This document shows, piece by piece, positions 3,903-42,698 of a DNA stretch of 64,000 nt. Numbering within the stretch: the first letter of the stretch is position 1; each line of letters starts with the position of its first letter. Where the stretch lies: the NCBI RefSeq assembly GCF_014202755.1, contig NZ_JACHHK010000002.1, positions 1 to 64,000 of the forward strand. Reading direction: 5' to 3'. The stretch comes from Catenisphaera adipataccumulans (GTDB taxonomy: Bacteria > Bacillota_I > Bacilli_A > Erysipelotrichales > Erysipelotrichaceae). A program made the translations under genes and the position numbers. Below the pieces are notes generated by a model. The model was not told where the DNA came from. It was given only the letters and a program-made list of their open reading frames with translations, and did no database searches.

Positions 3903-6900
3903 ATGGCAAAAGGCAGGAAACTCGGTTTTTTTGCCTGTTTTGTTTTTATGGCATTTTTATTGTTGGTTCATGGACCGGTCTTAGCAGAAGAAGTCCAGGC
4001 GGATCCGTCTTCTGAACAAACACAGACAGAGACCGTATCGGAGGAATCGGTGGCAGATCAAACTTCTGATGTTCGTGCAACTGCAGACGAGACACAAACG
4101 GATACGACTGCGGAATCTGAGACAACGGAAGAAACGCAGACGGATGCGGCAACGGATCCTGAGACGACTGAGCAATCAAAAGAAAACGCACAGACAGGAA
4201 CAGCCAGTGAATCCAAATTAACCAAACAAGCAACGAAAGAAACCAAAACACCGGCGAAAGTAGGGCCAAGCACTCGTGGCAGTTGGCATTATTACTTTCA
4301 CAAGGAAAATCTATCCGGTTATTTAGAAGTGCACATCCGGAAAACGGATGACAAAGGAAATGCGTTAAAAGGCGCAACTTTGCAGATTACGGATCTTGAT
4401 AATAACGGACAGCCAGCGGAATTCTGGATGAATGTTCAGGGCAAAATGGTCTTGGTTCCAAACGGTACATTTGTCGTCAACGAGGATCCGATCACGATTT
4501 ATTTCAAACGCCCAGACCTAGATGATAATAACTTTGATTTTAGTACGGATTTCAGAGTAATCCGTCATTTTCGCCTTTCGGAACTGGAAGCGCCGGATGG
4601 ATATGAAAAAGCAGAACCTTTAGATTTTGAATTGAATTTTTCTGAGCTCAAAGGTATGAATCATTATGATGATCGTGAAGGTATCCATTATGTGATGCGT
4701 GAATACTTAGAACATAGAGAACATGTGGATAGTGGAAGGTTTAAAATTTATTTAACAGACTGGATTGATGAAAACGGAAACACATATACTGGCGGTCATA
4801 TTTATAACGCTGCAACTGATGAAGCATTATTGTATCCGATTCTAGTAAACGGATACGGCGGTCATAATTCGGCTATTGCCGCAAAGTATTTAAAAACATC
4901 CCAAGATTCGGATTTTGCATATTTTTTGATCACACAGTTTGCGATCTACCATAAGTTGGGAACGATCAGCGACGAAATGATCTTGAATGAAATCCAGTCG
5001 ATCATAGATGTCGATCAAGAAAGACAATATGGTATTTTTCCAAATATGACCAAAGAGGAAATCTTTGCGATCGTTGAGGAACTCGCAAATTCCACCACAT
5101 CCGATCGATCTTTCCAGATCATCTCGTTAAGCAATGTTTTTACGGAGGAAGATTATGAATTTGAGAAATGGGATCCAGGATATATCCGATTCTATCACTG
5201 GGTTGCATTGGAACAAGTTCCGACATTCTGCTTGACTGATCGGGTAAAGGACGATCATGGGGTGGTTCGGATCCGAAAATACGGTTCGGATACAAATGGA
5301 AAATATCTGTCGGGCGCAAAGTTTCAGATCATTGATGCAGATGGTAAAATTGTCAAAGAATTTGTGACCGGTAATGAAGAAATGAAAATTGTTTTGCCGA
5401 TTGGAACCTATACACTTCACGAAGTCAGTGCCCCGAACGGATATCAGACAGGTCCGGATCAGATGTTTGAAGTTGTGGAAGACAAGATCACAAAGTTGTA
5501 TGGAACATCCAAGAAAGTTAAAGTAAAAAACGCTTACAGTGACAGAACTAATTTAGATTGGTATCAAGCAATCTACCGTGATCCAAATACCGGACGGGAA
5601 TTGTATGCGCTTCAGTTCGCATATGATCCGCGCTCCAAATCTATTACATTCGATCGTACGATTGCGAATGCGGATTCTGTTCAGATGTTTTATGACAATG
5701 ATTATAGAAACGCCCCGCAACATATTATTTATAATTCAGCAGACTTTTATAAAGCCATCATTTACATACTGACATATAACTATAAGTTTGAAGGATTAAA
5801 TGGTTTTCAAGAGTACTACATCAAACAATCAATCCTCTCTAGGATCAGCTATCGTTACTTCGGTTCAGGACTTGATGAGAACCCGACGATGTTTAACTTT
5901 AAAATTTATGATCAAGAAATCAGAGATAGTCAAATGCGTGATGCGATATTTCAATATATCGATAACTATGCAAATATCATTATGAATGATCTGGGGACTG
6001 GTAAGCTGAACGACGAATATATCAACACAGAGCTCAATTCGTATTATTTTTATTACTATTTTGATTCAAGCAGAAAACGTATCATGGTCAGTGCGCCAAT
6101 GCAAGAAGATCTTTTAATTAAAAAAATTACGAATCGTCGAAATACCGGTTATGTGAAGATCCATAAATATGCATCGGATACCCATCAGTATTTAGCAGGC
6201 GCAACGATGCAGATCATCGATCAGACCTGCAATGTTGTCAGAACGTTTGTCACCAACGGTCAGGAGCAGACCATTGAACTGCCGTTCGGAACATATACGC
6301 TGCATGAAGTCAGTGCGCCGCAGGGATACAACGTGAATTCAGATGTGACATTCACAGTCAACAGTACGGAAATCAATTTATTAACTGCGGTCCAGAGAAA
6401 AGATACGGTCATTTACGATGAAAATGGCAATGTACTTTTTGTGTTCAAACCTTCAGAAAATTATGATCGCACGGATCAGAATATAAATCCGCTCATCAAA
6501 GTAAAAGCAAACGAGAATATGTTCAATGATCAGAAAGATCCGAAACTGTATTATGAAAGTGTGCGCTACTGGCTGTCACGTGTATATCCGTATACAGATT
6601 CTCAAAGCATCGATCCGCAGTTGGTCTACTTGATTTCACAAGTGTATGTTCATGAAGTATTCAGGGCAAACAATGATTATGTAGAAGTTGTTGATATGGA
6701 TCAATTGATGCAGATGATCGAGCAATATTCTGATGAAGACGTGGAAAAATTTCATCAAGAATTTAGTACGATTGTTAATGATTTCGATGCGATTTGTGAT
6801 TCGGATGATCCATATGCAGAATTACTGAAAGCCAATGAGAATGCCGGTGAGTTGTATCTCTATTATGCCGAGGACGGTTCGGTCTATGTTGGTATAGAAC

Positions 6901-7136
6901 CGGCTGGAAAGACTGTCATGACCATCGCATCGGCGGCCATCACGGATGAGAAGATCCCGGAAAAGCCGGAAGAGAAAAAAGAAGAAAAGAAACAAGAAAC
7001 CAAGCAAGATACGAAGACGGTGGAAACAGCGACAGCGCATGGTGTACAAACCGGTACGTTTACTAACTCATTGATGTGGATGATGCTTGCGGCAGCGGCA
7101 GCAGCCGGAATTCGTAAGATCCACGATATCGCATAA
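3903..7136 (+). CDS. SpaA/Cna-B-type cell-wall surface adhesin, copy 2
   Basis: A paralogue of the preceding gene with the same architecture in 1077 residues. It has a near-identical signal peptide and Thr/Glu repeats (1-115) and SpaA/Cna-B domains near 140-240, 455-540 and 745-830. The helical spacers keep the ITQFAIYHKLG motif near 342 and TFCLTD near 440. The C-terminus is HGVQTGT plus a hydrophobic segment. The first about 260 codons and the last 312 bases are almost identical to copy 1, whereas the helical spacers differ strongly. A Cys occurs in the third Cna-B domain (QTCNVV) where copy 1 has Ala. The role is probably adhesion with a variable binding face; the ligand is unknown. Confidence 0.8.
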   Translation: MAKGRKLGFFACFVFMAFLLLVHGPVLAEEVQADPSSEQTQTETVSEESVADQTSDVRATADETQTDTTAESETTEETQTDAATDPETTEQSKENAQTGTASESKLTKQATKETKTPAKVGPSTRGSWHYYFHKENLSGYLEVHIRKTDDKGNALKGATLQITDLDNNGQPAEFWMNVQGKMVLVPNGTFVVNEDPITIYFKRPDLDDNNFDFSTDFRVIRHFRLSELEAPDGYEKAEPLDFELNFSELKGMNHYDDREGIHYVMREYLEHREHVDSGRFKIYLTDWIDENGNTYTGGHIYNAATDEALLYPILVNGYGGHNSAIAAKYLKTSQDSDFAYFLITQFAIYHKLGTISDEMILNEIQSIIDVDQERQYGIFPNMTKEEIFAIVEELANSTTSDRSFQIISLSNVFTEEDYEFEKWDPGYIRFYHWVALEQVPTFCLTDRVKDDHGVVRIRKYGSDTNGKYLSGAKFQIIDADGKIVKEFVTGNEEMKIVLPIGTYTLHEVSAPNGYQTGPDQMFEVVEDKITKLYGTSKKVKVKNAYSDRTNLDWYQAIYRDPNTGRELYALQFAYDPRSKSITFDRTIANADSVQMFYDNDYRNAPQHIIYNSADFYKAIIYILTYNYKFEGLNGFQEYYIKQSILSRISYRYFGSGLDENPTMFNFKIYDQEIRDSQMRDAIFQYIDNYANIIMNDLGTGKLNDEYINTELNSYYFYYYFDSSRKRIMVSAPMQEDLLIKKITNRRNTGYVKIHKYASDTHQYLAGATMQIIDQTCNVVRTFVTNGQEQTIELPFGTYTLHEVSAPQGYNVNSDVTFTVNSTEINLLTAVQRKDTVIYDENGNVLFVFKPSENYDRTDQNINPLIKVKANENMFNDQKDPKLYYESVRYWLSRVYPYTDSQSIDPQLVYLISQVYVHEVFRANNDYVEVVDMDQLMQMIEQYSDEDVEKFHQEFSTIVNDFDAICDSDDPYAELLKANENAGELYLYYAEDGSVYVGIEPAGKTVMTIASAAITDEKIPEKPEEKKEEKKQETKQDTKTVETATAHGVQTGTFTNSLMWMMLAAAAAAGIRKIHDIA
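6825..7136 (+). repeat. near-identical 3' coding segment, adhesin copy 2
   Basis: The partner of 3257-3568, covering the C-terminal strand, linker and sorting signal of the second adhesin. Confidence 0.75.
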
Positions 7137-7143
7137 GATATAA

Positions 7144-7176
7144 GTCTGTCTTTCGAAAAGAAAGGCAGACCTTTTT
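7144..7176 (+). terminator. intrinsic terminator after adhesin 2
   Basis: An 11-bp stem, GTCTGTCTTTC / GAAAGGCAGAC with one G-T pair, and a five-base loop are followed by five T. It separates the adhesin locus from the purine operon. Confidence 0.9.
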
Positions 7177-7200: not shown

Positions 7201-7229
7201 TTGTCATCCCCCTTAAATTACGGTAAAAT
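7201..7229 (+). promoter_or_regulatory. sigma-A-type promoter of the purine operon
   Basis: TTGTCA (7201-7206) and TAAAAT (7224-7229) are separated by exactly 17 bases, which predicts a start site near 7236. No PurR-type box or purine aptamer is visible around it, so control probably acts in the short leader that follows. Confidence 0.75.
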
Positions 7230-7262
7230 AGTTATACATTAAAGGATTTTGGAGGTCTGCTT

Positions 7263-7319
7263 ATGTATATTAAGAAGATTCACAAAACAAATAAAAAATG
7301 GATGAGAACGCGCCTGTGA
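7263..7319 (+). CDS. leader peptide upstream of purE
   Basis: An 18-codon ORF encoding MYIKKIHKTNKKWMRTRL. It has an ideal Shine-Dalgarno (GGAGGT at 7251-7256, six bases before the ATG) and starts only about 27 bases after the predicted transcription start. Its last codons form the 5' arm of the terminator at 7307-7337, and the TGA stop (7317-7319) lies in the loop. It is rich in Lys codons. The arrangement is that of an attenuator peptide: a ribosome finishing the peptide would cover the 5' arm and favour read-through into purE. No competing antiterminator hairpin was found. The role is inferred from layout only. Confidence 0.55.
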   Translation: MYIKKIHKTNKKWMRTRL

Positions 7320-7337
7320 GGTTAGGTGCGTTTTTTT
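7307..7337 (+). terminator. attenuator terminator in the purE leader
   Basis: The stem ACGCGCCT / AGGTGCGT (7308-7315 with 7324-7331, one G-T pair) has an eight-base loop and runs into seven T. It lies after the promoter and before purE, so full-length operon transcription requires read-through. Its 5' arm is the end of the leader-peptide ORF. Confidence 0.8.
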
Positions 7338-7356
7338 GCGGAAAGGAAGAGCACAA

Positions 7357-7845
7357 ATGTCAAACAAACAAGTATTGATCGTGATGGGATCACGTAGTGA
7401 TCTGCCAGCTATGGAAAGCTGCATGAAACAGCTGGATGAATTTGAAATTGGATATGAAGTACGCGTATTAAGCGCACACCGTACGCCGCAGGCCGTGCTG
7501 AAGCTGTCAAGCGAAGCCAAGGACCGCGGTATAAAAGTGATCATTGCCGCTGCCGGCGGCGCCGCTCACTTAGCCGGTGTCATTGCCAGCAGCACCCCGC
7601 TGCCGGTCATCGGCATTCCGATCCAGACCTCTGCACTAGGCGGTATGGATTCCCTGCTTTCAACGGTACAGATGCCGTCCGGCGTCCCGGTTGCCACAGT
7701 TGCGATCGGTAAAGCAGGACCAAAAAATGCGGCCATCCTGGCAGTTCAGATGATCGGCTTGGCGGATGCATCCGTTCAGCAGAAAATCATCGACTTTAAA
7801 AAGGCACAGGCAGATAAAGTCCTGGCCGATTCTGTCGTAGAATAG
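7357..7845 (+). CDS. purE: N5-carboxyaminoimidazole ribonucleotide mutase PurE
   Basis: PurE rearranges N5-CAIR to CAIR in purine synthesis in the cytoplasm. The 162-residue length and the motifs GSRSDLP (N-terminus) and SAHRTP near residue 42 fit the family, as does the Gly/Ala-rich AAAGGAAHL segment. I start at the ATG at 7357. An in-frame TTG at 7336 lies inside the T run of the terminator and is not credible. Upstream purines (GGAAAGGAAGA) give a modest ribosome-binding site. It is the first gene of purE-purL-purF-like-purM-purN-purH. PurK and PurC are not in the window, so bacterial class I activity is assumed from the sequence, not from context. Confidence 0.95.
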   Translation: MSNKQVLIVMGSRSDLPAMESCMKQLDEFEIGYEVRVLSAHRTPQAVLKLSSEAKDRGIKVIIAAAGGAAHLAGVIASSTPLPVIGIPIQTSALGGMDSLLSTVQMPSGVPVATVAIGKAGPKNAAILAVQMIGLADASVQQKIIDFKKAQADKVLADSVVE

Positions 7846-42535: not shown

Positions 42536-42555
42536 ACGAGTGATCAATGAATAAG

Positions 42556-42665
42556 TTCTTCGGGGCAGGGTGAAATTCCCTACCGGCGGTGACAGTCCGC
42601 GACTCGCTAAGGCGACTGAATCGGTGAAATTCCGATACCGACAGTATAGTCTGGATGGTAGAAGA
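42556..42665 (+). ncRNA. FMN riboswitch (RFN element)
   Basis: All the conserved blocks of the RFN aptamer are present in order: TTCTTCGGGGCAGGGTGAAA, TTCCCTACCGGCGGTGACAG, a variable arm, CCGACAGTATAGTCTGGATG and GTAGAAGA. It is followed by a terminator and then ribU. FMN binding should favour termination and shut down riboflavin uptake. Confidence 0.97.
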
Positions 42666-42698
42666 CAAAAAACGAGATTTTTTCGTATTTTTGGAATC

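Follow-up and report, generated by a model that had tools for sequence, protein, structure and literature searches.

A conserved leader ORF and terminator in front of purE in Erysipelotrichaceae, a probable ribosome-dependent transcription attenuator

The E. coli pyrBI and rph-pyrE operons are controlled by a comparison of ribosome progress with that of RNA polymerase (PMC5021804, PMC2784333), and attenuation at pyrE is probably relieved when the rph stop codon is brought closer to the attenuator (PMC2784333). The reach of the ribosome in E. coli has been described: a terminator placed a few nucleotides past a stop codon is almost fully repressed, and this repression fades beyond ∼27–30 nt and vanishes without translation (PMC4824070). 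Polymerases of Bacillota are predicted to outrun ribosomes (PMC13323073), and the tlrB leader of B. subtilis uses a polymerase pause for ribosome protection (PMC12288461). Leader peptide attenuators of the his type have been predicted in Erysipelotrichales (PMC9413887), the same order as the bacterium described here. In the literature searched we found no report of a translated leader governing a purine operon.

We analysed a stretch of 64,000 nucleotides from Catenisphaera adipataccumulans (the window; contig NZ_JACHHK010000002.1, positions 1 to 64,000), which includes a purine operon headed by purE. The purE leader is probably a ribosome-occlusion transcription attenuator without amino-acid specificity that follows the logic of pyrBI and rph-pyrE, and it is most likely the position of the ribosome, not a particular amino acid, that decides expression of the operon.

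The purE leader and its conservation

The promoter with 17-bp spacing, the GGAGGT, the 18-codon ORF and the terminator whose arm is the end of that ORF, followed by purE, all lie where a first-pass annotation of the window had placed them. A sigma-70-type promoter, TTGTCA-17-TAAAAT, occupies 7201–7229 of the forward strand, and the same TTGTCA-17-TAAAAT precedes the leader at loci L002, L005 and L015 of relatives; the leader length of 27 nt presupposes a putative start site near 7236. The Shine-Dalgarno (SD) sequence GGAGGT (7251–7256) is seen in nearly all relatives. The leader ORF (7263–7319) begins with ATG at 7263 and has 18 codons, MYIKKIHKTNKKWMRTRL, among them five Lys, one His and one Trp, and its TGA at 7317–7319 falls in the terminator loop. 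The intrinsic terminator (7304–7335) has its 5′ arm at 7304–7316, its loop at 7317–7322 and its 3′ arm at 7323–7335, running into U residues; the 5′ arm coincides with the end of the leader ORF, and the arm core (7307–7316) lies inside the last codons. This terminator is unlisted by a simple terminator scan but emerged on reading, on folding and in a second scan. The fold of 7236–7356 has a z of −3.1 relative to shuffles. The purE gene (AIR carboxylase; 7357–7845, ATG at 7357) is the first of an operon in the order purE-purL-purF-purM-purN-purH that extends to 16081, and Pfam confirms the AIR carboxylase and other purine genes.

Directly upstream of the purine operon, 3903–7136 (forward strand) encodes a 1077-aa protein with SpaA prealbumin-like domains, and this gene has its own terminator at 7144–7170. 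An FMN riboswitch (Rfam RF00050, 113 bits) lies at 42552–42670 of the forward strand with a terminator just downstream. Elsewhere in the genome of the window (G000:C4, L130:5317, forward strand), a 19-codon ORF, MWWFVTKSLTRAKNKQPAR, contains two Trp codons and overlaps a terminator that lies 28 nt upstream of a 377-aa ORF; it is a possible candidate for a second leader attenuator in this genome.

In agreement with the first-pass annotation, an Rfam search of the purE leader gave no match to a purine, ZTP, PRPP or other aptamer, so a known aptamer in the leader is ruled out. A whole-genome search found no purine riboswitch anywhere in the genome of the window. The repressor PurR (TIGR01743) scored above cut-off in 0 of 195 Erysipelotrichaceae genomes, that of the window included. 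The PurR-specific domain PF09182 gave weak matches only, mostly in frames of ∼500–720 aa that are not PurR-sized and that we take to be BglG-type regulators, judged by their length.

We located purE in 109 of the 195 genomes of the same family and read the upstream DNA at 90 loci; the family is Erysipelotrichaceae as judged by the named carriers of the same element (Faecalitalea, Faecalicoccus, Longicatena, Holdemanella and Amedibacillus). An automatic scan for ATG ORFs of 8–45 codons preceded by an SD, with the stop codon inside a terminator or at most 20 nt before it, found a short ORF with a strong SD coupled to a terminator at 42 of 79 purE loci, versus 4 of 321 control terminators in a 453-kb portion of the genome to which the window belongs; these four include the purE locus of the window itself. 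With any SD accepted, the same scan gave 54 of 79 and 25 of 321. When a count by eye is added, a short ORF ends on or adjoins the terminator at ∼77 of the 88 purE loci with enough upstream sequence, although this count is biased towards finding leaders, whereas the automatic one is unbiased and lower, and the relatives in either are not independent observations. The count by eye also took in non-ATG starts, weaker SDs and L035, where the leader lies ∼510–550 nt upstream, and some leaders outside the hairpin group described below were picked by eye.

The spacing of the elements is narrowly kept. The base of the terminator lies 38–68 nt past the AUG in 66 of 70 leaders, with a median of 50, and the distance from the stop codon to the base of the hairpin has a median of −4.5 nt, with a 10–90% range from −21 (inside) to +10 (before the hairpin). 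At L017 and L034 the leader ORF runs through the terminator into the purE start. In leaders with the initiation hairpin the start codon could be fixed without reference to the stop, and 29 of 29 distinct sequences keep the ORF frame open as far as the terminator, versus 4 and 15 of 29 for the other two frames; shuffling the variable part of the ORF alone was uninformative, as this part is too short. Family members that lack the initiation hairpin still keep the arrangement. The layout of ORF, SD and terminator at purE is beyond chance, and across the family the three are conserved together, rather than the hairpin being kept where the ORF is lost. In a sister family purE directly follows another gene, on reading presumably fhs, with no leader in front. 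At L020, L021, L026, L027 and L036 a U run falls within the terminator stem or loop itself (CACAGAAU..GUGUUUUUUU..), and at the first four of these the FF codons of the leader form part of the terminator hairpin.

The encoded peptides are not kept. The 60 distinct leader peptides are unrelated and have no universal amino acid, with Phe in 52, Arg in 51 and Trp in only 4, and codon-specific sensing is rejected on this ground. The role that the first-pass annotation had envisaged for the Lys codons is therefore not sustained, and Lys appears incidental. Between the close relatives L003 and L009 the end of the ORF shifts frame (MVLRRFTKLKEHRLF versus MVLRRFTKLKNMDCFKRA) and still ends on the hairpin. 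An antiterminator reading is likewise excluded, since the sequence preceding the terminator is no more stably folded than its shuffles (mean z −0.18).

A hairpin around the leader initiation region

Positions 7247–7287 of the window fold as a two-stem hairpin around the SD and AUG of the leader, a structured initiation region that is absent from the first-pass annotation. The outer stem, P1, joins UUUUG (7247–7251), immediately before the SD, to CAAAA (7283–7287), as judged from the fold and from a pairing test of own against swapped partners. In the inner stem, P2, identified by fold and covariation, GGUCU.CUUA (7254–7263), whose last base is the A of the AUG, pairs with UAAG.AGAUU (7271–7280). 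The apical loop of the fold (7264–7270) holds the UG of the start codon and reads UGUAUAU, as against UGGUCU in most relatives.

The SD and AUG of the leader lie inside one such hairpin at 34 loci, including that of the window. The usual form of P2 is GGUCUU.CUUA/UAAG.AAGAUU, with variants GUUA/UAAC, ACGAA/UUCGU and UAAAGUUA/UAACUUUA; 86% of cells are paired, and covariation is 0.344 versus 0.115 in shuffles (0/500) and at most 0.147 when slid (0.348 with the window in the set). The variants of P1 that bracket the SD are UUUUG/CAAAA, CUUUUG/CAAAAG, UAUAG/CUAUA and UUGUUG/CARCAA, and P1 strands pair better with their own partners (−3.5 kcal/mol) than with partners swapped between sequences (−2.19±0.27 kcal/mol; permutation p 0.0002, a value that ignores relatedness). 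Taken singly, the hairpin sequences have only a modest folding advantage over shuffles.

When the window is left out of its training set, a covariance model still matches the window at 7244–7289 with 28.8 bits. The model matched 33 of 195 family genomes, once in each and at purE wherever this could be checked (the match in G123 is at a contig end); a search of 395 genomes of the class gave no match outside this family. Copies of the hairpin elsewhere in the genomes are ruled out by this single match at purE, and the SD-preceded exact matches to the core among 84,980 named species all stand before purE where the contig is long enough. The loop letters UGGUCU are strongly conserved in most relatives; the loop is nevertheless variable, differing in the window and being longer in L006 and L013, and the 3′ side of the internal loop is not conserved, so that a loop-binding ligand is rejected. 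The initiation hairpin probably limits the time for which the site is open for ribosome loading.

A run of at least four U residues within 15 nt before the terminator is present in 23 of 31 leaders with the initiation hairpin, versus 31 of 332 and 15 of 120 controls. These U runs are consistent with a polymerase pause; the leader of the window, unlike most of its hairpin-bearing relatives, has none. A purine-rich pause tract was not seen in the leader body, which shows no purine enrichment (A+G 0.507), and the NusG pause motif TTNTTT occurs in 22 of 63 leaders where ∼20 are expected, with no overall enrichment. Since the leader body is not purine-rich and TTNTTT is not enriched, sensing specific to purine NTPs finds no sequence support.

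Proposed mechanism and the signal it may read

We propose that RNA polymerase starts ∼27 nt upstream of a strong, structured ribosome-binding site and transcribes a short ORF whose end meets an intrinsic terminator ∼50 nt past the AUG. A ribosome on or near the last codons would cover the 5′ arm, so that no hairpin could form and the purine operon would be transcribed; with no ribosome there in time, the polymerase would terminate. Such a switch would compare the progress of the ribosome with that of the polymerase, with a slow polymerase (low NTPs) favouring expression and translation that is slow or fails, through amino-acid starvation, the stringent response or poor initiation, favouring termination. 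The first-pass annotation had likewise proposed that a ribosome on the ORF blocks the hairpin, and the retained ORF frame and the absence of an antiterminator argue for this core mechanism at the level of sequence; it had also called the arrangement the reverse of trp-type logic, which is correct, though E. coli pyrBI and rph-pyrE already follow that logic.

With no antiterminator present, and with ORF, SD and terminator retained as a set, the only evident means of preventing termination is a ribosome on the ORF. We infer the direction of the switch, in which the presence of a ribosome brings read-through, from this geometry and the published E. coli data. The measured spacings between stop codon and terminator are within the reach reported for E. 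coli (PMC4824070), and thus a ribosome that has arrived at the leader's end should allow read-through, and an absent or late one should lead to termination. If polymerase outruns the ribosome in Bacillota, ribosome protection would be harder and may depend on pausing or on slow transcription.

A similar race may operate elsewhere in the lineage. In pyrB of the window's genome (L207; G000:C2:192600–196300) and of ten relatives (L186, L188, L191, L196, L198, L201, L202, L203, L205 and L206), a terminator-like hairpin with a U run lies inside the coding sequence and ends at the LFFEPSTRT codons. In most genes that carry it, it is more stable than in synonymous-codon shuffles (z −1.7 to −5.1; p<0.05 in 10 of 19 tested genes); the pyrB genes of the other clade lack it. 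As the protein is conserved, the hairpin shows little covariation. This suggests that a ribosome-polymerase race may also gate the pyr operon, in what looks like a pyrBI-type attenuation built into pyrB itself.

The physiological signal at purE may be of two kinds, and our estimates for these concern the signal alone; both refine the core mechanism and are not alternatives to the anatomy. In the first, which we regard as quite possible if somewhat short of probable, the input would be the supply of initiating and elongating ribosomes, as in a stringent-type gate, and amino-acid starvation or (p)ppGpp would lower leader translation and turn purine synthesis off, replacing the missing PurR. The mixed, unspecific codons of the leader and its structured and conserved initiation region both speak for it. 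Moreover, Bacillota with PurR repress purine genes through (p)ppGpp and PurR on amino-acid starvation (PMC8789054) and this family has no PurR above cut-off, so that a coupling of purine synthesis to translational capacity is plausible; termination on failing translation would let the family, like Bacillus, turn purine synthesis off when amino acids run out (PMC8789054). However, a falling GTP level should itself slow initiation, and would turn purine synthesis off just when purines are scarce.

The second is a purine counterpart of pyrBI, in which low ATP or GTP slows the polymerase, the ribosome catches up and read-through follows, and we consider it possible but rather doubtful. The anatomy is that of pyrBI and rph-pyrE, with overlap, no antiterminator and no special codons, and the U runs that most hairpin-bearing leaders carry just before the terminator point the same way, as does the pyrB of the same lineage, with its in-CDS terminator stronger than synonymous shuffles predict. 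Against this, the leader of the window has no U run, no leader body is enriched in purines, and U runs would report UTP, not purines. A wider version would have the ribosome-polymerase race control both purine and pyrimidine synthesis in this PurR-less lineage, the purE hairpin closing over the SD and AUG during transcription so that only a slow polymerase allows loading, as a kinetic NTP sensor, and the same race acting at pyrB on the in-CDS terminator; in this full form we think it unlikely.

It is improbable that the ORF is unused, the terminator hairpin being a constitutive partial terminator or the initiation hairpin binding a ligand or protein directly. The strong conservation of UGGUCU in most relatives would fit direct binding, but the loop varies in the window, L006 and L013 and the 3′ side of the internal loop is unconserved, while conservation of the SD, AUG, frame and spacing exceeds chance, and the ORF-terminator layout persists in members without the initiation hairpin. 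Classical attenuation, with ribosomes stalling at particular codons (Lys, or His and Trp) or a nascent-peptide signal, is very improbable, since the Lys, His and Trp codons of the window ORF are not conserved among the 60 peptides, C-terminal frames differ between close relatives and no antiterminator is present.

Comparison with known systems

Read as a ribosome-occlusion attenuator, the purE leader resembles E. coli pyrBI. As with pyrL, a short and, at purE, putatively translated leader overlaps an intrinsic terminator in front of a nucleotide-synthesis operon, with neither an antiterminator nor a regulatory codon run, and a close ribosome gives read-through, as it presumably does here. It differs in serving purine genes in a Bacillota host, in being much shorter (18 codons), in having its SD and AUG in a conserved hairpin, and in lacking, in the copy of the window, the U-rich pause tract. 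By layout the purE leader would work like pyrBI, and strict membership of that class would mean a response to NTPs. In rph-pyrE, too, the distance between stop codon and terminator sets expression (PMC2784333), but the upstream ORF there is a full gene, rph, whereas here it is a dedicated leader without conserved sequence.

Leaders of the trp and his type share a translated leader and an intrinsic terminator before a biosynthetic operon; the purE leader has neither their regulatory codon run nor their antiterminator and would act in the opposite sense, the translating ribosome switching the operon on. The antibiotic-inducible leaders of tlrB and vmlR in Bacillota likewise combine a leader ORF with transcription attenuation in a Gram-positive host, and their attenuation is aided by polymerase pausing (PMC12288461), but the purE leader shows neither a stalling peptide nor alternative structures.

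Guanine (purine) and ZTP riboswitches act on the same gene, purE; the leader of the window has neither, and in relatives the purine riboswitch stands beside the purE leader while the ZTP riboswitch occurs where the leader is absent. By pattern, the leader precedes a purine riboswitch at 26 loci and follows one at 12, and at ∼35 a leader is present and no riboswitch was detected. Purine riboswitch and leader follow one another upstream of purE, in both orders and in different genera, at L019, L022, L023, L030 and L031 and at L051, L053, L059 and L063, and a leader in series with a guanine riboswitch would make a natural two-input gate. In one large genus a ZTP riboswitch is found instead at L159, L160, L163 and L166 (by reading), and L165, L167 and L169 have a longer leader ORF that ends on a terminator before purE, which suggests that within this genus one replaced the other.

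Erysipelotrichaceae are common in the gut and belong to a phylum whose polymerases are predicted to outpace the ribosome, and a conserved ribosome-dependent terminator would make transcription-translation coupling directly testable there. The leader also offers an answer to how bacteria without PurR may match purine synthesis with growth. Compared with the systems above, the novelty of the purE leader is that of a known attenuator logic on a new operon with a new initiation structure.
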